NCBI RefSeq assembly: GCF_030679875.1
Contig: NZ_JAUXSP010000006.1
Span: forward strand, 62,001 to 126,000
Direction: 5' to 3'
Length of the DNA: 64,000 bases
Source of the DNA: Phenylobacterium sp.
GTDB taxonomy: Bacteria; Pseudomonadota; Alphaproteobacteria; Caulobacterales; Caulobacteraceae
Shown: in pieces, positions 28,028 to 41,358 of the stretch
How positions within the stretch are numbered: position 1 is the stretch's first letter
Layout: each line of letters starts with the position of its first letter
Position numbers and translations under genes: made by a program
Notes under the pieces: generated by a model
Database searches by the model: none
Seen by the model: only the letters and a program-made list of their open reading frames with translations
What the model was told of the DNA's origin: nothing

Positions 28028-28429
<402 letters not shown>

Positions 28430-28473
28430 CGCCGCCCTTTCGACACAAACCGTCCGGAGCGTTCGACCCCCAC

Positions 28474-28500
28474 TATACTTAACATGTTCCGTGTATGTTC
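28474..28500 (+). promoter_or_regulatory. LexA-type SOS box on the mraZ/dcw promoter
   Basis: TATACT (28474-28479) is a good -10 element, although no clear -35 is seen. GTTC at 28486-28489 and GTTC at 28497-28500, exactly 7 nt apart, match the alphaproteobacterial LexA site GTTC-N7-GTTC. The box would cover the transcription start, the classic place for repression. This suggests LexA control of the promoter ahead of mraZ. No other GTTC-N7-GTTC was found in the intergenic regions I scanned. Confidence 0.65.
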
Positions 28501-28705
28501 TGTGGAGTGTTTACGTGCGTTAACCATAAGTCTCATGCGACATCTTTGTATTCTGGGGATTATGGGCTTCAGAGTCATTGCGACCCAATCCATCCCATGT
28601 TAACCCATTTCCTGTTCGCTGGGGGTTGGCGGACTCCGTTGGCGAGCCGACGGGATGGTTGGGGCGGCGGCCTGTGGGGGTCGCAGATGAGGGCGTCGGG
28701 CGCGA
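28501..28705 (+). promoter_or_regulatory. Long mraZ 5' leader with CcrM sites
   Basis: About 200 nt separate the SOS box from mraZ. It holds two GANTC methylation sites (GAGTC 28572-28576 and GACTC 28632-28636) and the half-sites GTTAACC at 28519-28525 and 28599-28605, which resemble CtrA half-sites. No full TTAA-N7-TTAA CtrA box is visible. The stretch is AT-richer than surrounding coding DNA. Cell-cycle control through CcrM/GcrA is plausible but unproven. Confidence 0.4.
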
Positions 28706-29173
28706 ATGTTTGTCTCGACCTTCGAGAAGCAGCTGGATGCGAAGCGGCGCCTCGTGGTGCCGCAGGAGTTCCGCGCCCTCGTGTCGGGTCCCTTCGACGG
28801 CGTCGTCTGCTTCCCTTCGATTGAGGCCGACTGCATCGAGGGGGGCGGCAAGGCCCTGCTCGACCGCTATACGGGCGTGATCGGGGAGTTGGAGTTCGGC
28901 GACCCGCTGCGCTCAGCCCTGGAAGTCTCCGTCCTCGGGGGCATGGCGCGCCTATCCTTTGACACCGCGGGCCGTGTGACCCTGCCCGAAACCCTCTGCG
29001 ACCTGTTTGGCCTCAGCGACTGGGTGGTCATTGTCGGCCTCGGTGACCGGTTCCAGATCTGGGCCCGCGAAGCCTTCCAGGCCCATCGCGCCGCCCAACG
29101 CGAACTGGCCCGTGAGGGCCTGGCCCAGATGCGCGCCGATCAGCGCGCCGCCCGCCTGGGGGCCAGTTCATGA
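28706..29173 (+). CDS. mraZ: Transcriptional regulator MraZ
   Basis: The protein has 155 residues and two tandem SpoVT/AbrB-like MraZ domains: [20 protein letters not shown] with FRALV, then [20 protein letters not shown]. MraZ forms a ring and binds repeats near its own promoter, repressing the dcw cluster in bacteria studied. It is the first gene of the cluster, and the rsmH start overlaps its last 4 nt. I could not pick out a convincing triple GTGGG-type MraZ repeat in the leader by eye. Confidence 0.95.
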
Positions 29174-30102
29174 GCGCGCCCCATCTTCCCGTCCTCTTGA
29201 GCGAAGTTGTCGAGGCCCTGGTGATCGCGCCGGGCGACGTCGTCGTCGACGGCACCTTTGGCGCCGGCGGCTATGCCCGCGCCTTCCTGACAGCGGGCGC
29301 GAAGGTCACCGCCTTTGACCGCGACCCCACCGCGGCGCGCTTCGCCGCTGATCTGCCGACGGATCGTTTCACCCTGGTCTGCGCCCGCTTCTCCGAGATG
29401 GACGAGGTTCTGGGGGAGGGCGGCGCCGACGGCGTGGCCCTCGATCTCGGCGTATCGTCCATGCAGCTGGACGAGCCCGACCGCGGCTTTTCCTTCCTGC
29501 GCGACGGTCCCCTCGACATGCGCATGGGCGACGAGGGCGAAACAGCCGCCGATCTGGTCAACACCGCCGAACCGGGAGATCTCGCCCGGATCCTCTGGGT
29601 CTATGGCGAGGAAAAGAAGTCCCGTCGGATCGCCGGCGCCATCGCCCGGCGTCGCGTCCAGCAACCCTTCACCCGCACGGCCGAGCTGGCCGACTTCATT
29701 GAGGGCGTGCTGGGCGGCCGTCGCGGCGCCAAGGCCCACCCCGCCACCCGGTCCTTCCAGGCCCTGCGCATCGCGGTGAACGACGAACTCGCCGAACTTG
29801 AGGCGGGCCTCGCTGCGGCAGAGCGCGTCCTGAAGCCCGGCGGCCGCCTGGCCGTGGTCACTTTCCACTCTCTGGAAGACCGGATCGTGAAGGCCTTCCT
29901 CACTGAGCGCGCTGGGCGCACGCCATCGGGCTCGCGCCATCTGCCCCCCGTCGAGGACGCCCGCGCCCCCAGCTTCGCCCTGAGCTTCAACGGCGCCCGC
30001 ACCTCGGGCCAGGCCGAGCTGGACGCCAACCCCCGGGCGCGTTCAGCCAAGCTGCGGGCCGCCGTGCGCACCGAGGCGCCCGTCTGGAGGACCGCGGCAT
30101 GA
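29170..30102 (+). CDS. rsmH: 16S rRNA (cytosine(1402)-N4)-methyltransferase RsmH
   Basis: This 310-residue SAM-dependent methyltransferase modifies C1402 in the ribosomal P site. Motifs are [27 protein letters not shown] (SAM loop), [42 protein letters not shown] and [15 protein letters not shown]. It overlaps mraZ and ftsL by 4 nt each. Presence between mraZ and ftsL is the standard dcw order. Confidence 0.97.
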
Positions 30103-30458
30103 GCGTGCTCAATCGCCGCATTCGCGGGTTCCGCCTCGTCGATGTGATCGCCCTGGGCCTGCTGGTCCTGCTGATCATGAGCGTCTATCTGGCCAAGACC
30201 ATCGCCAGCCGGGAGCGGGCTGAAATCGCCTCTGTGGAACGTCAGATCGCCGCTGAGCGCGCGCAGATCCGCCTCCTTGAAGCCGAGGTCGCCCACCTCG
30301 AACAGCCATCCCGCATTGAGCGCCTTTCGACCCTCTATCTGGAGATGGGCCCTGTAGATGTGACGCGGGAGACGACGGCCGACTCCCTGGCCGCCCTGGC
30401 GCCGCCCAAGGCCCCTTCGGCTCGGGCTCCGGCCCCGAAGCTGGAGGTCGTCCCGTGA
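30099..30458 (+). CDS. ftsL: Cell division protein FtsL
   Basis: This 119-residue bitopic protein has a short cytoplasmic N-terminus, one membrane helix ([18 protein letters not shown]) and a periplasmic leucine-rich coiled coil ([20 protein letters not shown], with [11 protein letters not shown]). The C-terminal tail is rich in Ala and Pro. FtsL sequence is poorly conserved; topology, size and place before ftsI identify it. It joins FtsB and FtsQ and helps activate FtsWI. Confidence 0.88.
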
Positions 30459-32215
30459 GCCTTGCCGGCGTCGTCACCCGCAGGTTTCCCTTCGGCCTTC
30501 GCTGGCTGGGCGCCGCCCTCTGGCGTCTGGAACATGCCTTTGAGCGCGCCCGGGCGGCTGGCCGCGTCGAGGATGACGCCCGCATCCGAATCTTCATGGT
30601 CATGCTGTTCTTCGGCCTGGGCTTTGGCGCCCTGGCCATGGGCGCGACCCAGGCCGCGCTGTTCTCCGGCTCAGGCGGCGGCGGCGGCGCAGGCTGGCTT
30701 CCGCCCCAGGCTCGGGCCGACATTGTCGACCGGGAGGGCCGCCTTCTGGCCGCCGACCTCCTGCACTATGGCCTCTATGTGGATCCCGCTGAGGTGTGGG
30801 ACGCCGCCTCCACCCGTCAGGCCTTGGCCAAGGCGCTGCCGACCGTATCGGCTGAGCGTCTGGACCGCGCCCTGAAGTCTGAGCGCCGTACGTTCCTGGC
30901 GGGGGGCATGACGCCGGTCCAGAAGTCGGCCATCCATCAACTGGGCCTGCCTGGGATTTCCTTCGAGCCCGAGCAGAAGCGCGTCTATCCCCTCAACCAT
31001 ACCGCTTCGCATCTGATTGGCTTCTCGGACACGGGCGGCGAGGGGCTGGCGGGGGCTGAGCTGGCCCTGAATGATGAGCTTCGGGCCCTGGCGCGGGAGT
31101 CCGGCGAGTTGGCCCTCTCGATCGACCTGCGGGTCCAGGGGGCGCTCGAAGACGAGCTGCGAAAGGCGGCCGAAACCTATGGCCCCAAGGGGGCGGTGGG
31201 CCTCGTCGCCCATGTCCACACCGGCGAAATTCTCGGTCTCGCCAGCTATCCGGATTTCGACCCCAACACCGCTAGCGCCGCCAGCGCCGATGCGCGGCTC
31301 AACCGTGCGGCCTCGTCTGTGTTTGAGATGGGCTCGACCTTCAAGGCCTTCACGGTCGCCATCGGCCTCGATACCGGCGTAGCGACCATGGCGTCGACCT
31401 TCGACGCCCGCGAGCCCTATAAGCTCGGCTACAGGACCATCAGCGACTACCACGCCTCTCGCAAGGTGCTGAGCCTCGTGGAGGTGTTCCAGCATTCCTC
31501 CAATATCGGCACCGCCAGGCTTGCCGTTGGGGTGGGCCCTGAGCGCCTCAGCCGCTATTTCGACGACCTGGGACTGACCACGGCGGCCAAGGTCGAGCTG
31601 AAGGAATCGGCCTCGCCCCTGACGCCCAAGGTATGGAATGAGGATGCGGTCGCCTCCACTTCCTTTGGCCATGGCATGAACATCTCGCCGTTGGCGCTCA
31701 CCCGCGCCATGCTGCCCCTGTTGAATGGCGGCAAGCTGGTCCCCCTGACGATCCGTCGCCAGGCGCCCGGCTTCCGGCCGGAGGCCAAGCGGGTGCTGTC
31801 GGAAACCACCTCGACTCAGATGTTGCAGATCATGCGCGCCAATGTGACCGGCGGCAGCGGCGGCAAGGCCGACGCGCCAGGGCTCAGCGTCGGCGGCAAG
31901 ACCGGCACCGGCGAGAAGTATGATCCAGAGATCCGACGCTACAACGGCAAGCGTCAGGTCTCCTCTTTCGCGGCCGTCTTTCCCACTGATGGCCCCCTTG
32001 AGAACGATCGCTATTTTGTTCTGATCCTGCTGGATGAGCCGCACGGGACTCCGCAGACCTTTGGCTATTCCACGGGCGGCTGGGTCGCTGCGCCCGCCAC
32101 CGGTCAGCTCATCGCCCGGATCGCGCCCTTCCTGGGGATTTCGCGCCACATCGGCCCGATGGAGCACCAGCCTCGTCTGGCTTCGACCCCGACCGTGCTG
32201 GCGGAGGCCCGCTGA
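30455..32215 (+). CDS. ftsI: Peptidoglycan transpeptidase FtsI (PBP3)
   Basis: The protein has 586 residues: a cytoplasmic N-terminus, a membrane anchor (IFMVMLFFGLGFGALAMGAT), a dimerisation domain, then a transpeptidase domain. Active-site motifs are STFK with Ser294 and Lys297, SSN at 348-350 and KTG at 482-484. It cross-links septal peptidoglycan together with FtsW. The start overlaps ftsL by 4 nt and the stop touches murE. Confidence 0.96.
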   Translation: MSLAGVVTRRFPFGLRWLGAALWRLEHAFERARAAGRVEDDARIRIFMVMLFFGLGFGALAMGATQAALFSGSGGGGGAGWLPPQARADIVDREGRLLAADLLHYGLYVDPAEVWDAASTRQALAKALPTVSAERLDRALKSERRTFLAGGMTPVQKSAIHQLGLPGISFEPEQKRVYPLNHTASHLIGFSDTGGEGLAGAELALNDELRALARESGELALSIDLRVQGALEDELRKAAETYGPKGAVGLVAHVHTGEILGLASYPDFDPNTASAASADARLNRAASSVFEMGSTFKAFTVAIGLDTGVATMASTFDAREPYKLGYRTISDYHASRKVLSLVEVFQHSSNIGTARLAVGVGPERLSRYFDDLGLTTAAKVELKESASPLTPKVWNEDAVASTSFGHGMNISPLALTRAMLPLLNGGKLVPLTIRRQAPGFRPEAKRVLSETTSTQMLQIMRANVTGGSGGKADAPGLSVGGKTGTGEKYDPEIRRYNGKRQVSSFAAVFPTDGPLENDRYFVLILLDEPHGTPQTFGYSTGGWVAAPATGQLIARIAPFLGISRHIGPMEHQPRLASTPTVLAEAR

Positions 32216-33666
32216 TGCCGCGTCTTTCCAGCCTTCTCTTCCAAGACCTCGACCAGGACCCGGAGATCACAGGGGTCACCGCTGACAGCCGCAAGGTCCA
32301 GCCGGGCTTCCTGTTCGCCGCCCTGCCGGGGGTGCAGGCCAATGGGGCTGCCTATGCCGAACAGGCGGTCAGGGCCGGGGCCGCCGCGGTGATCGCCGGT
32401 GAGGCGCTGGGAACCCTTGATGCGCCCGTGGTCACGGTCGCCGATCCACGCCGGGCCTACGCCCTGGCCGCCGCCGCCTTCTGGGGGACGCAGCCGCCGG
32501 TCTGCGTGGCGGTGACGGGCACCAACGGCAAGACCTCTGTGGCCACCTTCTGCCGGCAGATATTCGCCAGCGCCGGGCGGCGGGCCGCCAGCATGGGCAC
32601 CCTCGGCGTCCTGGCCTCGGGCCCTGACCTCAACGAACAGCTCACCCCACCTGGCCTCACCACCCCCGACGCCGGGGATATGGCGGAGCTGATGGCGCGC
32701 CTTGCAGAGCTGGGGGTCACGCATCTGGCCCTGGAGGCCTCCTCCCACGGGATCGACCAGCGCCGCCTGGACGGCGTGAAGCTGAAGGCCGCGGGCTTCC
32801 TGAACCTGACCCAGGACCACCTCGACTATCACGGCGACATGGACGCCTACCGGGCGGCCAAGCTGCGCCTGTTTGAGGCCCTGCTGCCCCGGGGCGGGAC
32901 GGCCGTGCTCAATGCCGATTCCGACGCCTTCGCCCCCTTCGCAGCGGCCGCGATCCAGGCCGGCCACGCCATCCTGTCGGTGGGCGAGGCCGGACAGAGC
33001 CTGCGGCTGAACCGCCGGGAGCTGACGCCAGATGGCCAGCGCATGAGCCTGTCCCACGACGGGCGAACCTTCGATCTGCGTCTGCCCCTGGCCGGCGCCT
33101 TCCAGGCCGCCAATGCGCTGGCCGCCGCCGGCCTCTGTCTGGCTGCGGGCGAGAGCATCGAGACCGTCCTGGCCGCCCTGGAGCGCCTGGAGGGCGCCCC
33201 TGGCCGGATGCAGCGGATCGGGTCCGGACCCCGGGGTGGGGAGGCCTATGTCGACTATGCCCATACCCCCGACGGCCTGAAGACCGCTCTTTCGGCCCTG
33301 CGCCCGCACACCCGCGGGCGTCTGATCGTCGTGTTCGGCGCCGGCGGCGACCGGGACCCCACCAAGCGGTCGTTGATGGGGGAGGCTGCAGCCGAACACG
33401 CCGACATCGCCATCGTCACCGACGACAATCCCCGCAGCGAGGATCCCGCCCAGATCCGCGCCCAGGTCCGCGCTGGCGCGCCTGAGGCCCAGGACATCGG
33501 CGATCGCCGCGCTGCCATCGCCGCGGCCGTCGCCCTCATGCGTGAAGGCGATGTCCTGGTGGTCGCGGGCAAGGGCCATGAGCAGACCCAGACCATCGCC
33601 GGCGCCGCCCATCATTTCGACGACGTGGCGGTGACCGCCCAGGCTCTGGAGGCGGTCCATGTCTGA
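32215..33666 (+). CDS. murE: UDP-MurNAc-L-Ala-D-Glu:meso-diaminopimelate ligase
   Basis: This 483-residue Mur ligase has the ATP loop TGTNGKTSVA (~100-108), the carbamylated Lys region, and DDNPR (404-407), the motif that selects meso-diaminopimelate rather than lysine. It adds the third residue of the stem peptide in the cytoplasm. It overlaps murF by 8 nt. The C-terminal GKGHEQTQ is also typical. Confidence 0.97.
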   Translation: MPRLSSLLFQDLDQDPEITGVTADSRKVQPGFLFAALPGVQANGAAYAEQAVRAGAAAVIAGEALGTLDAPVVTVADPRRAYALAAAAFWGTQPPVCVAVTGTNGKTSVATFCRQIFASAGRRAASMGTLGVLASGPDLNEQLTPPGLTTPDAGDMAELMARLAELGVTHLALEASSHGIDQRRLDGVKLKAAGFLNLTQDHLDYHGDMDAYRAAKLRLFEALLPRGGTAVLNADSDAFAPFAAAAIQAGHAILSVGEAGQSLRLNRRELTPDGQRMSLSHDGRTFDLRLPLAGAFQAANALAAAGLCLAAGESIETVLAALERLEGAPGRMQRIGSGPRGGEAYVDYAHTPDGLKTALSALRPHTRGRLIVVFGAGGDRDPTKRSLMGEAAAEHADIAIVTDDNPRSEDPAQIRAQVRAGAPEAQDIGDRRAAIAAAVALMREGDVLVVAGKGHEQTQTIAGAAHHFDDVAVTAQALEAVHV

Positions 33667-35056
33667 GCCCCTCTGGACCGCGGCCGAGATCGCCCAGGCT
33701 GTCGGGGGCGAGGTCGTCGGCGGCGACTTCGCGGTGAGCGGCCTGTCCATCGACAGCCGCTCCGTAGACTCTGGCGACCTGTTCATCGCCCTGGCGGGCG
33801 TACGCGATGGCCATGAATTTGTCTCCCAGGCCCTCGGGCAGGGCGCCGCCGGATCGCTGGTCTCGCGCCCTCAAGGCGGCCCAGCCGTGGTGGTGGCCGA
33901 CACCTTCAAGGCCCTGGAGGCCCTGGGCGAGGCGGCGCGCGACCGGGCGACCAAGGTCCGCCGTGGCGCGGTCACCGGCTCGGTCGGCAAGACCAGCGTC
34001 ACTCAGGCGGTTCGCGTTGGCCTTGCCCTGGCCGGCAAGGCGCATTCGTCGGTCAAGTCCTACAACAACCATATCGGCGTGCCGCTCACCCTGGCCCGGA
34101 TGCCCCGGGACACGGAGCGTGCGGTGTTCGAGATCGGCATGAACCACGCCGATGAAGTCACGCCCCTCTCCAGGATGGTCCGCCCCCACGCGGCCCTGAT
34201 CACCACAGTCGGCCCCGTACATGTGGAGAACTTCCCGGACGGCGAGGCCGGCGTGGCCCGCGCCAAGGCGGAAATTTTCGACGGCCTGGAGCCGGGCGGC
34301 GTGGCGATCCTCAACGCTGACAATGTCTGGTTCGGCGACCTGGCCACCGCAGCCAAGGCCGCTGGCGCCAGGGTGGCCACCTTCGGGACGGGCGAGGGCG
34401 TCGACGCCCGCCTCCTCGGATTCAATCCTGGTCCCGGTCAGGCGATTGTCCGGGCCCGACTGCGGGGACAGGCCCTGGACTTCCCAATCCTTCAGACAGG
34501 GTTCCACTGGGGGTTGAACAGCATGGCGGTCCTGCTGATGCTCCAGGCTCTCGACGTCACCCTCGAGGACGGCCTGATCGCCCTGGGCGCCTTTGAGCCT
34601 CTGGCCGGGCGCGGCGCCGAGCGGCAGGTGGCCTTGGCCGGCGGCGACTTCACCCTGATCGACGAAAGCTACAACGCCAATCCGATCTCCATGGCCGCAG
34701 CCATCTCTAGCCTCGGGGCGCGCAAGACCTCGGGGCGGCGGATCGTCGCGCTGACCGACATGCTGGAACTCGGCGGCGAGGCCGAAGCCTTCCATCGCGC
34801 CCTTGCAGAGCCCCTGGACGCAGCCGGGGTGGACCTGGTGTTCTGCGCCGGGCCGCTGATGAAATCCCTCTGGGACGCCCTTCCTTCGACTCGTCGGGGC
34901 GGCTACGCCGAAAGCGCAGCTCAAATTGGGCCGCAGGTCGCCCAGGCCGTAGAGCCTGGCGATCTGGTGATGGTTAAAGGTTCGAACGGCTCTCGGGCCG
35001 GGGTGGTCGCGGCCGCCCTGGGAGAGCTCGGGCGTGCGCAAGGGGGGCAGGGCTGA
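33659..35056 (+). CDS. murF: UDP-MurNAc-tripeptide--D-alanyl-D-alanine ligase
   Basis: The protein has 465 residues with the substrate-binding N-domain ([19 protein letters not shown]), the P-loop [11 protein letters not shown] and the central motif [14 protein letters not shown]. The C-domain holds [15 protein letters not shown]. It adds D-Ala-D-Ala to the tripeptide precursor, completing the pentapeptide. Note Ser-Val in place of the more common Ser-x-Gly in the P-loop, still within family range. Its stop overlaps the mraY start. Confidence 0.96.
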
Positions 35057-36165
35057 TGTTCTACTGGCTCTACACGCAGATGGCGGCCGAGGGACATGTC
35101 CCTTTTCTCAACCTGCTGAAATACCTGACTTTCCGGACGGGCATGGCGCTGTTCACCGCCCAGTTGGTGGTGATCCTCATGGGATCGCGCTTCATCCGCT
35201 GGATGCAGGCCAAGCAGGGCAAGGGCCAGCCGATCCGCGCCGACGGCATCGAGCGCCACATCGTCGAAAAGGCCGGCACACCGACCATGGGCGGGGTGAT
35301 GATCCTGGCCGGCCTGATCATCGGCACCCTGCTCTGGGCGGACCTGTCCAACATCTATGTCTGGGTCGTCCTGTTCGTCACCGCCAGCTATGGCGTGCTG
35401 GGGTTCACCGACGACTACGCCAAGGTGACCAAGCAGAGCACCGCCGGCGTCTCAAGCCGGGTGCGCCTGGTTCTTGAGGTGGTAGTGGCCCTGGCTGCGG
35501 TCGCCGTCCTGATCATCTATGGCGCGCGCACAGCGGAATCGCCGGACCTGAACACCTCCCTGGCCTTCCCGATCTTCAAGCATTTTCTGCTGGATCTCGG
35601 CTGGCTCTACCTGGTGTTCGGCGCCCTGGTGATCGTCGGCGCGGCCAATGCGGTGAACTTCACAGACGGCCTTGATGGCCTGGCCACCGTGCCGGTGATG
35701 ATCGCCGCGGCCGCCTTTGGTCTGATCGCCTACCTCGTCGGCAACTATCTGTTCGCCAACTATCTACAGCTGCATTTCGTGCCCGGTGTGGGCGAGGTGG
35801 CGGTGCTTTGCGGGGCCATCATCGGGGCGGGCCTGGGCTTCCTCTGGTACAACGCCCCGCCGGCCAAGATCTTCATGGGCGACACCGGCTCGCTGGCCCT
35901 GGGCGGCGCCCTGGGCGCCGTGGCTGTGGCCACCAAGCACGAGATCGTCCTGGCCATCGTCGGCGGCCTGTTCGTGTTGGAGACCCTGTCAGTGATGATC
36001 CAGGTGGTCTCCTTCAAGCTCACGGGCCGCCGCGTCTTCCGCATGGCGCCGATCCACCACCACTTCGAGAAGCTCGGCTGGTCGGAATCCACGGTGGTGA
36101 TCCGCTTCTGGATTGTCGCGGTGATGCTCGCCCTCCTGGGTCTCGCGACCCTGAAGCTGCGATAG
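35056..36165 (+). CDS. mraY: Phospho-MurNAc-pentapeptide transferase MraY
   Basis: This 369-residue protein has ten membrane helices. It transfers phospho-MurNAc-pentapeptide to undecaprenyl phosphate, giving lipid I. Diagnostic segments are [18 protein letters not shown] (Asp pair), [25 protein letters not shown] and [14 protein letters not shown]. All key Asp and His residues are present. Confidence 0.97.
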
Positions 36166-36184
36166 GGAGGCTGGCGCTCACACC

Positions 36185-37600
36185 ATGATCCCCGTCCGTG
36201 GTTTCGAAGGCAAGACAGTGGCGGTGTTCGGCCTGGCCCGTACGGGGCTTGCGGCGGCGCGCGCCCTGCAGGCTGGCGGAGCCAATGTGGCCCTGTGGGA
36301 TGAGCGTCCCGCCGCCCGCGAGGCGGCCATGGCCGAAGGCTTCGAACTGACCGACCTGTCGTCAGCCGACTGGTGGAGCTTCTCAGCCCTGCTACTGTCG
36401 CCCGGCGTGCCGCTCACCCATCCCACGCCCCACTGGACCGTCGACCGGGCCAAGGCGGCCGGGGTCGAGATCCTCGGCGACATCGAGCTCTTCGCCCGGG
36501 CGGTCAACGCTGCGCCAGAGCACAAGCGGCCCAAGGTCGTGGCCATCACGGGCACCAATGGCAAGTCCACCACCACCGCCCTGATCGCCCACATCTGCGC
36601 CAGCGCCGGCCGCGACACCCGCATCGGCGGCAATTTCGGCTTCGGTGTTCTGGGGCTGGAGGACATGCATGGCGGTGCGGTCTACGTGCTGGAGATGTCG
36701 TCCTATCAGCTCGACCTGACCACCAGCCTCAAGCCTGACGTCTCGATCCTGCTGAACATCACCCCTGATCATCTGGATCGTCACGGCGGCATGGACGGCT
36801 ATGTGGCCGCCAAGCGCCGGGTGCTGCTGAACCAGGGCAAGGGGGACACCGCCGTCATCGGCGTCGATGACCCCTATGGCCAACGGATCTGCACCGAGGT
36901 GGTGGCCGCCAATCGCCGGACCATCGTGCCGATCTCCTCGTCCAAGGCCATCGGGCGCGGGGTCTATGTGCTGCAGGGCCTGCTCTATGACGCCACCGGC
37001 GAGCGGGCCGTGGAGATCGCTGACCTGCTGCGCGCCAGATCCCTGCCGGGTCGGCACAATTGGCAAAACGCCGCCGCCGCCTACAGCGCCGCCCGTGGCC
37101 TCGGCCTGACGCCAGAAGAAGCCGCCGAGGGGTTGATGACCTTCCCGGGGCTCGCCCACCGGATGGAGACCGTCGGCCAGTTGGGTCGGGTTCGCTTCGT
37201 CAACGACTCCAAGGCCACCAACGCCGACGCCGCCCGCCAGGCGATGTCCAGCTATCCCAAGTTCTTCTGGATCGCCGGCGGTCAGGCCAAGACCGGTGGC
37301 ATCGAGAGTCTCAGCGACCTCTTTCCCCGCATCGAGAAGGCCTATCTGATCGGCGAGGCCGCGCCGGTGTTCGCCGACGCGCTGGCCGGCAAGGCGCCCG
37401 TCGCCGAGTGCGGCGACCTGGAGCGTGCGGTGCAGCGGGCCTATGCTGACGCCGCCGCCACCGGACAGGACGCGGTGGTCCTGCTGTCGCCGGCCTGCGC
37501 CTCCTTTGACCAGTTCGCTGACTTCGAGGCCCGCGGGGAGGCTTTTCGGTCCGCCGTGCAGGGGCTTGAGGCGCCGGTCCAGAAGGGCGCGCGGGCATGA
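36185..37600 (+). CDS. murD: UDP-MurNAc-L-alanine--D-glutamate ligase
   Basis: The protein has 471 residues. It has a Rossmann N-domain (VAVFGLARTGLAAARAL), the ATP loop GTNGKSTT near 123-130 and the segments EMSSYQLD and ITPDHLDRHG. FVNDSKATNADAA and VLLSPACASFDQFADFEARG mark the C-domain. It adds D-Glu to UDP-MurNAc-L-Ala. ftsW starts within its last 4 nt. Confidence 0.96.
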   Translation: MIPVRGFEGKTVAVFGLARTGLAAARALQAGGANVALWDERPAAREAAMAEGFELTDLSSADWWSFSALLLSPGVPLTHPTPHWTVDRAKAAGVEILGDIELFARAVNAAPEHKRPKVVAITGTNGKSTTTALIAHICASAGRDTRIGGNFGFGVLGLEDMHGGAVYVLEMSSYQLDLTTSLKPDVSILLNITPDHLDRHGGMDGYVAAKRRVLLNQGKGDTAVIGVDDPYGQRICTEVVAANRRTIVPISSSKAIGRGVYVLQGLLYDATGERAVEIADLLRARSLPGRHNWQNAAAAYSAARGLGLTPEEAAEGLMTFPGLAHRMETVGQLGRVRFVNDSKATNADAARQAMSSYPKFFWIAGGQAKTGGIESLSDLFPRIEKAYLIGEAAPVFADALAGKAPVAECGDLERAVQRAYADAAATGQDAVVLLSPACASFDQFADFEARGEAFRSAVQGLEAPVQKGARA

Positions 37601-38787
37601 GCGCCGACCATCTGACCAAGCCCAGCCAGGCGCACGCCTTCGCCCGCAGCGATCGCTCGGCCCTGGGGGTCTGGTGGTGGACCATTGACCGCTGGCTACT
37701 GGGCGCTGCGGCGGTGCTCATCGGCCTGGGCATCCTGTTGTCCTTCGCCGCCAGCCCGGCGGCGGCGGCCCGGATGAATGTCGGCGATCCCTTCCACTTC
37801 GCCCTGCGCCAGTGCGTCTTCGCGATGCTGGGCGCCGCGGTGCTGGTGGTCACCTCCATGCTGGAGGTGCGCACGGTGAGGCGCCTGTCCTTCTTCATCT
37901 TTGTCGGCGCGATCGCCCTGATGGTCGCCCTGCCGTTCCTGGGCCACACCGCCAAGGGCGCCACCCGCTGGGTGGAGTTCGCCGGCTTCACCCTGCAGCC
38001 GTCAGAATTCATGAAGCCGGCCCTGATCATCCTGGTGGCCTGGATGTTTTCCGAGGGCCAGAAGGGCGAGGGAGTCCCCGGCGTCACGATCGCCTTTGCG
38101 CTCTACGCCGTTTCCGTCGCGCTGCTGCTCATTCAACCCGATGTAGGTCAGACCGTCCTGATCACAGTGGCCTTTGGGGCCGCCTTCTGGATGGCCGGGG
38201 TGCCGCTCTCCTGGGTCATGCGCCTGGGCGCTGTGGCCGTGGCGGGACTGGTGGCCATCTACTTCGTCTTCTCCCACGTGGCCGACCGGGTGAACCGCTT
38301 CCTGAACCCTGAGACCGCCGACACTCACCAGGTGGACCGCGCCGCCGAAGCGATCGCCGCCGGCGGACTGTTTGGCCGCGGGCCGGGGGAGGGGGTGATG
38401 AAGCGCCACGTCCCCGACCTGCATACCGACTTTGTCTACTCGGTCGCCGCCGAGGAATACGGCCTGGTCTTCAGCCTGATCGTCATCGGGCTCTTCGCCC
38501 TGATCGTCACCCGCGGCCTTCACCGGTCAATGAAGCTCAGCAACACCTTCGAGCAGGTGGCCGCCGCCGGTCTGTTCGTGATCGTCGGGCAGCAGGCCAT
38601 CATCAATATCGCGGTGAACCTCAACATGATCCCCACCAAGGGCATGACCTTGCCGTTCATCTCCTATGGCGGGTCGTCCTTGATCGCGTCTGGCCTCACC
38701 CTTGGCCTGGCCCTGGCCCTGACCCGTCGTCGGCCGGGCGCCTATGCCCCCTCCGAAGGGCTCGCCAAGGCCGGCGCCTTCGCCTAA
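37597..38787 (+). CDS. ftsW: Septal peptidoglycan glycosyltransferase FtsW
   Basis: This 396-residue SEDS-family membrane protein has ten helices. GATRWVEFAGFTLQPSEFMK contains the conserved W and the QPSE motif, followed by QPDVGQT. The segments DTHQVDRAAEAIAAGGLFGR, ADFVY-like HTDFVYSVAAEEYG and KGMTLPFISYGGSSL are typical. It polymerises lipid II at the septum with FtsI. Confidence 0.96.
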   Translation: MSADHLTKPSQAHAFARSDRSALGVWWWTIDRWLLGAAAVLIGLGILLSFAASPAAAARMNVGDPFHFALRQCVFAMLGAAVLVVTSMLEVRTVRRLSFFIFVGAIALMVALPFLGHTAKGATRWVEFAGFTLQPSEFMKPALIILVAWMFSEGQKGEGVPGVTIAFALYAVSVALLLIQPDVGQTVLITVAFGAAFWMAGVPLSWVMRLGAVAVAGLVAIYFVFSHVADRVNRFLNPETADTHQVDRAAEAIAAGGLFGRGPGEGVMKRHVPDLHTDFVYSVAAEEYGLVFSLIVIGLFALIVTRGLHRSMKLSNTFEQVAAAGLFVIVGQQAIINIAVNLNMIPTKGMTLPFISYGGSSLIASGLTLGLALALTRRRPGAYAPSEGLAKAGAFA

Positions 38788-38797
38788 ACGGGCCCCT

Positions 38798-39898
38798 ATG
38801 CGCAAGCTCGCCGTGGTCGCCGCCGGGGGAACCGGAGGCCATCTCTTTCCCGCCCAGGCGCTCGCTGAGACGCTGATCGCCCGTGGCTGGCGTGTGGCGC
38901 TGGCGTCTGACGAGCGGGTCGCGGCCTTCGCCGAGAGCTTCCCCGCCGAGGAGCGCATCGGCCTGTCGGCCAGCACCTTCAAGTCCGGCGACCCCATCGG
39001 CATGGCCAAGGCGGGCCTGGCCATCCTCCAGGGGGTGATGCAGGCCCGCTCGGCCTTCAAGCGCCTGGACCCCGCCGTCGTCGTCGGCTTTGGCGGCTAC
39101 CCGTCGGTGCCGGGCCTGCTGGCCGGGATCACCCAGGGTCGTCCGACGGTGATCCACGAGCAGAACGCGGTCATGGGCCGAGCCAACCGCCGCCTGGCCA
39201 GCCATGTCACCGCCGTCGCCTGCGCCTTTCCGAGCCTGCAGAAGGCGCCGCCCAAGGCCGCCGCCAAGGCCGTGGTCGTCGGCAATCCGGTTCGCCAGGA
39301 AATCCGCGACCTGGCCGACAAGCCCTATCTGCCCCCGGAAGACGGCGGCACCCTGCGCCTGTTGATCACCGGCGGCAGCCAGGGCGCACGGCTGTTGTCG
39401 GAACTGATGCCCGAGGCCATCCGCGCCCTGCCCGAGGACCTCCGCGTCCGCCTGAGGGTGCAGCAGCAGACCCGCAAGGAGTCCATGGACATCGCCCGGC
39501 GCATCTATGCCGACGCCATGGTCGAGGCCGAGATCGCTCCCTTCTTCCGCGACATGGCCACGCGTCTGCGCCAGGCCCACCTGGTGGTCGGTCGCTCCGG
39601 CGCCGGCACAGTGTGCGAGTTCGCCATCGCCGGCCGGCCCTCGATCCTGATCCCGCTGGCCATCGCGCTTGACGACGACCAGGGTCAGAACGCCCAGGTG
39701 ATGGTCGAGGCCGGCGGCGCGGTGATCGCCCGGGAAAACCAGCTGACCGTCGAGTCCATGGCCAACGCCCTGGAAAAGCTGCTGACCAACCCCGAACGCC
39801 TGGCCCGCATGTCGGCCGGCGCCCGCGCCATCGCCCGGCCCGACGCGGCTGAGCGCCTGGCTGATCTCGTCGAACAGACCGCCGCTCAGGGCCGCTAG
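38798..39898 (+). CDS. murG: UDP-GlcNAc:lipid I GlcNAc transferase MurG
   Basis: I chose ATG 38798 (366 residues), because [20 protein letters not shown] puts the G-loop in its normal N-terminal place. A start 54 nt upstream would lie in the end of ftsW. Other marks are [38 protein letters not shown] and the UDP-GlcNAc site [19 protein letters not shown]. It makes lipid II on the inner face of the membrane. Confidence 0.96.
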
Positions 39899-39933
39899 GC
39901 CCCTCGTCCTCCAGCCACAGGCCCCGCCGCCCC

Positions 39934-41358
39934 ATGAACCGCCGTCGCCCCGTCCCCTTCGAACTCGGCCCCGTCCACTTTATCGGGATTGGCGGCATCG
40001 GCATGAGCGGCATCGCCGAGATCATGCTGCGCATCGGCTATACGGTGCAGGGCTCGGACTCCAAGGCCGGCGCCAATACCGAGCGCCTGGAAAAGCTGGG
40101 GGCGAAGATCTTCATCGGCCATGAGGCGAGCCAGGTCGAAGGCGCCTCGGCGGTCGTCTATTCCACCGCAGTCAAGCAGGACAATCCGGAGATGCAGGCG
40201 GCCCGGGAACGGCGCCTGCCCCTGGTCCGCCGGGCTGAGATGTTGGCCGAGCTGATGCGGCTGCAGTTCTCCATCGCCGTCGGCGGCACCCACGGCAAGA
40301 CCACCACCACCTCGATGATCGCCTCACTGCTGGACGCCGGCGGCCTGGACCCCACCGTGGTCAATGGCGGGATCATCAACGCCTATGGCACCAACGCCAA
40401 GGTGGGCGAGGGGGACTGGATCGTCGTCGAGGCCGACGAGAGTGACGGCACCTTCCTGAAGCTGAAGTCCACGGTCGCGGTGGTGACCAATATCGATCCC
40501 GAGCACCTGGACCACTACGGCGACTTCGAAGCGGTCAAGAAGGCCTTCCAGGACTTCATCGAGAACATCCCCTTCTACGGCTTCGCCGCGGTCTGCACGG
40601 ACCATCCCGAGGTCCTGGCCCTCACATCCCGGGTCGAGAACCGCCGGCTGGTCACCTATGGGGTCAATCCCCAGGCCGAGGTTAGGGCCGAGAAGATCTC
40701 CATGGGCCCCGATGGCGCCCATTTCGACGTGGTGATCCGCCCCCTCCAGGGCGAGCCGGTGCGGATGGAGAAGCTGCACATGCCGATGGCCGGCATGCAC
40801 AATGTGCTGAACGCCCTGGCCGCCGTGGCCGTGGCCCGGGAGCTGTCGGTGGGGCCTGAGGCCATCGCCGCCGGCCTGACCGGCTTTGGCGGGGTCAAGC
40901 GGCGCTTCACCACCACCGGGACCTCGGGCGAGGTGCGGATCATCGACGACTATGGCCACCATCCCGTCGAGATCAGCTCGGTGCTGACGGCCGCCCGCGC
41001 GGTGACCAGCGGCCGGGTCGTCGCCGTGGTTCAGCCGCACCGCTATTCGCGCCTGAAGGACCTTTTCGAGGACTTCTGCGCCTGTTTCAGCGACGCTGAC
41101 GTGGTGATCGTCGCCGACATCTACGCCGCCGGCGAAGCCCCCCTGGACGGCGCCAGCCGCGAGGCGCTGGTCGATGGCCTGCGCCGCTATGGCCATCGCC
41201 GCGCCCTGCCGTTGTCTGGGCCTGAGGATCTGGCGAGACTGGTGCTGCAGGAGACACAGGCCGGCGACCTCGTGGTCTGCCTGGGGGCCGGGGACATCAC
41301 CAACTGGGCCTACGCCCTGCCTGAACAGCTGGACGCCCTGCGCAGCCACGCCACATGA
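39934..41358 (+). CDS. murC: UDP-MurNAc--L-alanine ligase
   Basis: The protein has 474 residues. It starts with a nucleotide-binding motif ([20 protein letters not shown]) and has the ATP loop [36 protein letters not shown] and the C-domain [14 protein letters not shown] with [11 protein letters not shown]. It attaches L-Ala to UDP-MurNAc, the first peptide step. It overlaps murB by 4 nt. Confidence 0.97.

Follow-up and report, generated by a model that had tools for sequence, protein, structure and literature searches.

The window, by which we mean the whole 64-kb stretch of DNA that was analysed, carries the division and cell wall (dcw) cluster with mraZ at its head and the gene for the RNase P RNA, rnpB, just upstream (Table 1). 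Most of the closest relatives that have a name are Phenylobacterium and other Caulobacteraceae. Between rnpB and mraZ the forward strand reads GTTCCGTGTATGTTC, an exact match to GTTC-N7-GTTC that lies where the original prediction had placed it, and the TATACT hexamer that was said to precede it by 6 nt is likewise present. The distance from box to mraZ had been given as 206 nt; 205 nt separate the end of the box from the mraZ ATG. Six of the frames that follow mraZ have Pfam support; the ftsL-like frame scores below the Pfam cut-off, and murF, mraY, ftsW and murG are named by gene order only. GTTC-N7-GTTC is the LexA box consensus of Caulobacter crescentus, according to the accessible text of PMC12700426.

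Table 1. Features between rnpB and the end of the dcw cluster, in window coordinates.
Feature	Positions	Strand	Basis
rnpB, RNase P RNA class A	28033..28428	+	RF00010, 278 bits; box starts 57 nt past its end
TATACT, -10-like hexamer, 6 nt from box	28474..28479	+	sequence; TAnnnT here in 40/111 family regions
LexA-box motif GTTC-CGTGTAT-GTTC	28486..28500	+	exact match; 111/136 family and 37/88 class regions
Probable MraZ operator: CCCA three times at a 10-bp period (reads TGGG on the - strand)	28584..28607	-	positions; family conservation
mraZ	28706..29173	+	PF02381
Remaining dcw cluster: rsmH, ftsL-like, ftsI, Mur ligases, murF, mraY, ftsW, murG	29170..41358	+	frames, Pfam

Conservation of the box upstream of mraZ

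The family comparison covers 136 distinct mraZ upstream regions, which remained from 176 loci once duplicates and one region that was too short (L115) had been removed; the loci come from 70 of the 143 family genomes with a MraZ match. An exact GTTC-N7-GTTC lies on the mraZ strand, 137-232 nt ahead of mraZ, in 111 of these 136 regions. Close relatives, in which the original prediction had expected the motif to be conserved, thus keep it, and named examples include Phenylobacterium haematophilum DSM 21793 (L121), P. deserti YIM 73061 (L128) and Caulobacter segnis FS (L151). The interior of the box ends in TGTAT in 94 of the 111 cases and is different in the other 17.

Within the family, 25 regions lack the exact box; 21 of them still contain TGTATG, and in the other four nothing of it is left. 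At 12 loci, including those of C. vibrioides T5M6 (L147), C. zeae, C. radicis and C. endophyticus, the reading is GTTGTCTGTATGTTC, so that one half site of the C. vibrioides T5M6 mraZ box is changed. Seventeen Phenylobacterium-type loci retain GTTCNNTGTATG and have lost the second GTTC; the six of them with a listed genome size range from 2.4 to 2.9 million bases. We considered whether lexA had been lost together with the mraZ box, and this was ruled out for the 11 genomes, drawn from both groups, whose lexA locus was retrieved: every one keeps the lexA gene's own box intact. In one genome (G030) no lexA was seen, but that genome is 82% complete.

Beyond the family, the arms and their spacing persist while the interior does not. 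An exact box occurs in five of 20 regions from other families of the order, none of them with the TGTAT interior, and eight further regions are one base off, a count made without a control. For the other alphaproteobacteria we scanned, on both strands, 450 nt of DNA counted upstream from the Pfam match to the mraZ domain, the same length in every genome. Of the 117 genomes with a MraZ match 88 were used; one region that was too short (L343) and one from the same family (L297) were removed before counting. The box was found, on either strand, in 37 of these 88 genomes (85 other families), whereas 200 dinucleotide shuffles averaged 1.4 (sd 1.1) and never exceeded 4. At every gap between 0 and 20 other than 7, GTTC repeats are confined to zero to four class regions. 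When 136 tetramers were ranked at a gap of 7, GTTC/GAAC came first with 37 regions and the overlapping word AACA second with 36.

In 35 of the 37 positive class regions the box falls in an upstream cluster, some 231-355 nt ahead of where mraZ is estimated to start, whereas the matches of L318 and L286 lie only nearer mraZ, outside this cluster. Of 40 class boxes, 29 are reversed and 11 forward. An Rfam search of 20 box-bearing loci located rnpB in 12, each of which has the box between rnpB and mraZ. Two other targets were considered and set aside. A divergent neighbor is rejected because rnpB and mraZ run in the same direction with the box between them at the 12 of 20 loci where rnpB was found. 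A small SOS-induced protein encoded between box and mraZ was set aside more tentatively: open frames exist in the window, and the length from box to mraZ varies from 137 to 232 nt. One locus (L336) has two overlapping LexA boxes upstream of mraZ, with one GTTC common to both.

Judged from these sequence comparisons, the candidate LexA operator very probably has a long history in the class. The present data, in which both orientations occur, may reflect either an ancestral origin of the box or its gain on several occasions.

Association with lexA and with SOS boxes of the home genome

Class genomes were scored for LexA with the LexA protein of the home genome as the query. The box is present in 36 of the 73 genomes with lexA, whereas of the 15 genomes without a clear one a single genome has it (Fisher P = 0.003, in a test that treats genomes as independent). 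The assignment "without a clear lexA" was made by reading the results and comprises genomes with no match, with a C-terminal match only, or with a weak or broken match (G210, G222). The sole box-bearing genome in this category, G204, is 81% complete. Against the LexA reading, 37 of the 73 lexA-bearing genomes are without an exact box.

The home genome encodes LexA itself, and 60 nt ahead of the lexA match there is a box; 27 of 28 lexA loci have a box of their own. GTTC-N7-GTTC also occurs near the starts of recA, uvrA, ruvC and a ChlI-type gene in the home genome, in addition to lexA. In a second genome of the genus (G011, 83% complete) lexA lies in two adjoining pieces in different frames (L255, L256), perhaps through an assembly error.

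Across the whole home genome there are 83 exact matches to GTTC-N7-GTTC and 49 to the reversed control pattern. We asked how the interior of the mraZ box ranks among these sites under matrices built from SOS boxes of the same genome. A nine-box matrix was dropped as too weak, given negative left-out scores for four of its nine training boxes, and as partly wrong, given a darT box situated within the darT frame and an rmuC-like label assigned by eye. The DarT-type gene (PF14487, L020) has GTTCTATTTTTGTTC within its reading frame. The matrix was redone without darT and also with five boxes only, from genes named by lexA search or Pfam. With eight boxes the mraZ interior ranks third of 73 distinct non-training sites (P = 0.003), and with five it ranks fourth of 76 (P = 0.03 against a random interior). 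Matrices derived from the SOS boxes of the home genome are weak.

A predicted LexA operator on the dcw promoter

We propose, with considerable confidence, that the box is a LexA operator on the mraZ-dcw promoter, predicted to repress transcription until DNA damage occurs. The original interpretation is upheld in part. Its reading of the motif as a LexA box on this promoter is well supported by conservation in family and class, by the strict N7 gap, by the co-occurrence with lexA and by the placement between rnpB and mraZ; LexA binding, induction by damage and a slowing of division through induced MraZ are predictions. Of the promoter that it placed at the box, the -10 half has support. A TAnnnT hexamer occurs at most 16 nt ahead of the box in 40 of the 111 family regions, against zero to five of 111 at control offsets, whereas a generic sigma-70 scan of 28380-28760 detected no complete promoter. 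A CCATACTT/ACCATA element lies 30-55 nt past the start of the box in 35 of the 111 regions (a count without a control), and 17 family regions have both elements. From this distribution the box seems to have stayed in place while the promoter moved around it. LexA bound at either promoter position would be expected to block RNA polymerase.

Downstream of the box lies a probable MraZ operator. MraZ operators consist of TGGG-type repeats with a 10-bp period upstream of mraZ, to which MraZ binds, and the repeats listed in Table 1 fit this sequence pattern. A repeat of this type is found in 130 of the 136 family regions, at a median of 82 nt past the box (109 measured). It is preceded by GTCATTG in 112 of the 136 regions (28574-28580 in the window), and in an alignment of L220, L224 and L225 extra GTCA copies run in step with the 10-bp repeat, possibly marking a longer MraZ operator.

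Hypothetically, the switch would work as follows. LexA would grip both GTTC halves, over or beside the promoter. DNA damage would activate RecA and thereby LexA self-cleavage, and once LexA is gone, transcription of mraZ and of the division and wall genes downstream would increase. MraZ would then attach to the conserved threefold repeat, some 80 nt farther downstream, and shut the promoter again. Because the motif is conserved in both the family and the class, DNA damage would likely switch the dcw promoter directly, and because the MraZ-type repeat is conserved after the box, the predicted response to damage is an MraZ-limited pulse. Since ftsI, ftsW and the mur genes would be transcribed from this promoter too, their expression could initially go up when LexA is released; the cluster's own genes would rise before anything else, and only MraZ feedback would turn that rise into a pulse or a hold. 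The sign of the response is the weakest step of this proposal, and we suggest only tentatively, at somewhat below an even chance, that its lasting effect would be a hold on septal wall synthesis exerted via MraZ.

The opposite outcome is also plausible, and we would likewise hesitate to call it probable: LexA may merely tune basal dcw transcription, and its release after damage may raise wall and division proteins so that division can restart, rather than inhibit it. SOS responses usually stop division, which counts against a restart, and the presence of the MraZ-type repeat in nearly all family regions suggests that output is limited. The layout of the cluster, with ftsI downstream in the same direction, would suit a restart. 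So would the situation in R. sphaeroides, where, in the accessible text of PMC5089854, the dcw cluster has a long leader of 268 nt with the sRNA UpsM; the sole promoter found lies about 268 nt before mraZ, with none nearer, and thus near the class boxes (231-355 nt), such that LexA there would act on all dcw transcription. The accessible part of that study makes no mention of LexA or SOS.

A different reading of the family data attributes the conserved block of the Caulobacteraceae, GTTCNNTGTATGTTCTGTGGA, to a core promoter or to a binding site for some other regulator, such as DnaA, whose TGTGGATAA-type box is often the next element, with the likeness to a LexA box secondary. Sequence comparison does indicate that TGTATG is conserved beyond the needs of a LexA spacer: interior positions 6-10 of the box have an identity of 0.84-0.98 among 88 deduplicated windows with the box, and TGTATG outlasts the loss of either GTTC half, as in most family regions that lack the exact box. 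Directly 3' of the box, TGTG[GA]A follows in 63 of the 136 family regions, and the full TGTGGATAA in 20. Such over-conservation implies that the LexA box probably overlaps something with a function of its own, be it a promoter element or the following DnaA-type box. That this function accounts for the block in place of LexA is nevertheless improbable, since across the order and class it is the two GTTC arms, held 7 nt apart, that remain constant while the interior varies and the orientation flips (29 of 40 reversed), a different interior occurs even within the family (17 of 111 boxes), and the box co-occurs with lexA.

Several other motifs lie in the same interval. At 28501-28509, directly after the box, the window reads TGTGGAGTG, a DnaA-box-like TGTGGA(TAA), and we take sequences of this type to resemble the DnaA consensus. 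At 28520-28527 it has TTAACCAT, a word that is present in 56 of the 136 family regions (the reversed control word in none) and that we take to resemble a CtrA half site. Two GANTC sites, presumably CcrM methylation motifs, fall between the box and mraZ at 28572-28576 and 28632-28636.

Taken by itself, the pattern does not exceed chance, with two bare GTTC-N7-GTTC matches in the window against 1.08 expected and at least two in 28 of 100 shuffles; the box is far beyond chance because it is conserved upstream of the same gene in 111 of 136 family and 37 of 88 class regions (against 1.4 shuffled), and a functionless match, rejected by the shuffle, spacing and word controls on the class set, has a negligible probability.

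Known systems and implications for division control

The gammaproteobacterial LexA motif differs from the alphaproteobacterial one. In E. coli, the accessible text of PMC3265435 states from earlier work that LexA regulates dcw, with three SOS boxes and repression at the 5' region of the cluster, as proposed here. SOS control through a LexA site upstream of mraZ is likewise predicted for gut Gram-positives, where the site is bound by B. subtilis LexA in a gel shift; that case concerns the Gram-positive LexA motif and metagenome data, with no alphaproteobacteria in the accessible portion of the paper (PMC3998124). The route from damage-induced MraZ to division control that the original prediction called new is thus new at most for alphaproteobacteria. 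Our literature search for LexA together with mraZ or dcw recognised no alphaproteobacterial report, although one could have been missed. LexA control of dcw is known as a kind, and what appears to be new is the present member with the depth of its conservation.

A close comparison is with the C. crescentus LexA regulon, which likewise has GTTC-N7-GTTC at promoters and, as far as the accessible text goes, includes two genes with GTTCttgttatGTTC, sharing TATGTTC with the box described here (PMC12700426). The accessible main text of that paper does not name mraZ. The C. vibrioides T5M6 mraZ box reads GTTGTCTGTATGTTC, unlike the exact box here, and the changed half site in this lineage may be why the mraZ box was missed in the model organism. 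DNA damage in Caulobacter is known to act on division at FtsW/FtsI/FtsN through SidA and DidA, which, by the accessible text of PMC4211646 and PMC12700426, are small proteins acting on the divisome and not on dcw transcription, DidA being SOS-independent. Two reports count against the LexA reading: in Corynebacterium glutamicum ciprofloxacin lowers mraZ RNA instead of raising it (PMC5055667, accessible part), and mraZ is unnamed among the predicted LexA sites of Dinoroseobacter shibae in the accessible text of PMC6473078.

We can extend the prediction of a LexA operator to a broader evolutionary hypothesis, one that is speculative and that we consider rather unlikely in full. SOS control of the whole dcw cluster via LexA and MraZ would be an ancestral alphaproteobacterial division checkpoint on septal wall transcription, acting beside inputs from the cell cycle (in many relatives the LexA box is directly adjoined by a DnaA-type box). 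In the lineage of the model organism C. vibrioides this checkpoint would have decayed, with SidA and other small inhibitors doing the work there, and hence would have been missed.

To our knowledge, most alphaproteobacteria lack an established explanation for how cells that have no SulA halt or reschedule division once their DNA is damaged. If the proposed operator is real, a conserved LexA site governing ftsI, ftsW and the mur genes would bring the septal wall pathway under SOS control, and MraZ, a widespread regulator of unclear purpose, would gain a physiological input. The changed half site of the C. vibrioides lineage would then serve as a natural control, and C. segnis FS, a Caulobacter with the exact box, makes this reading testable.
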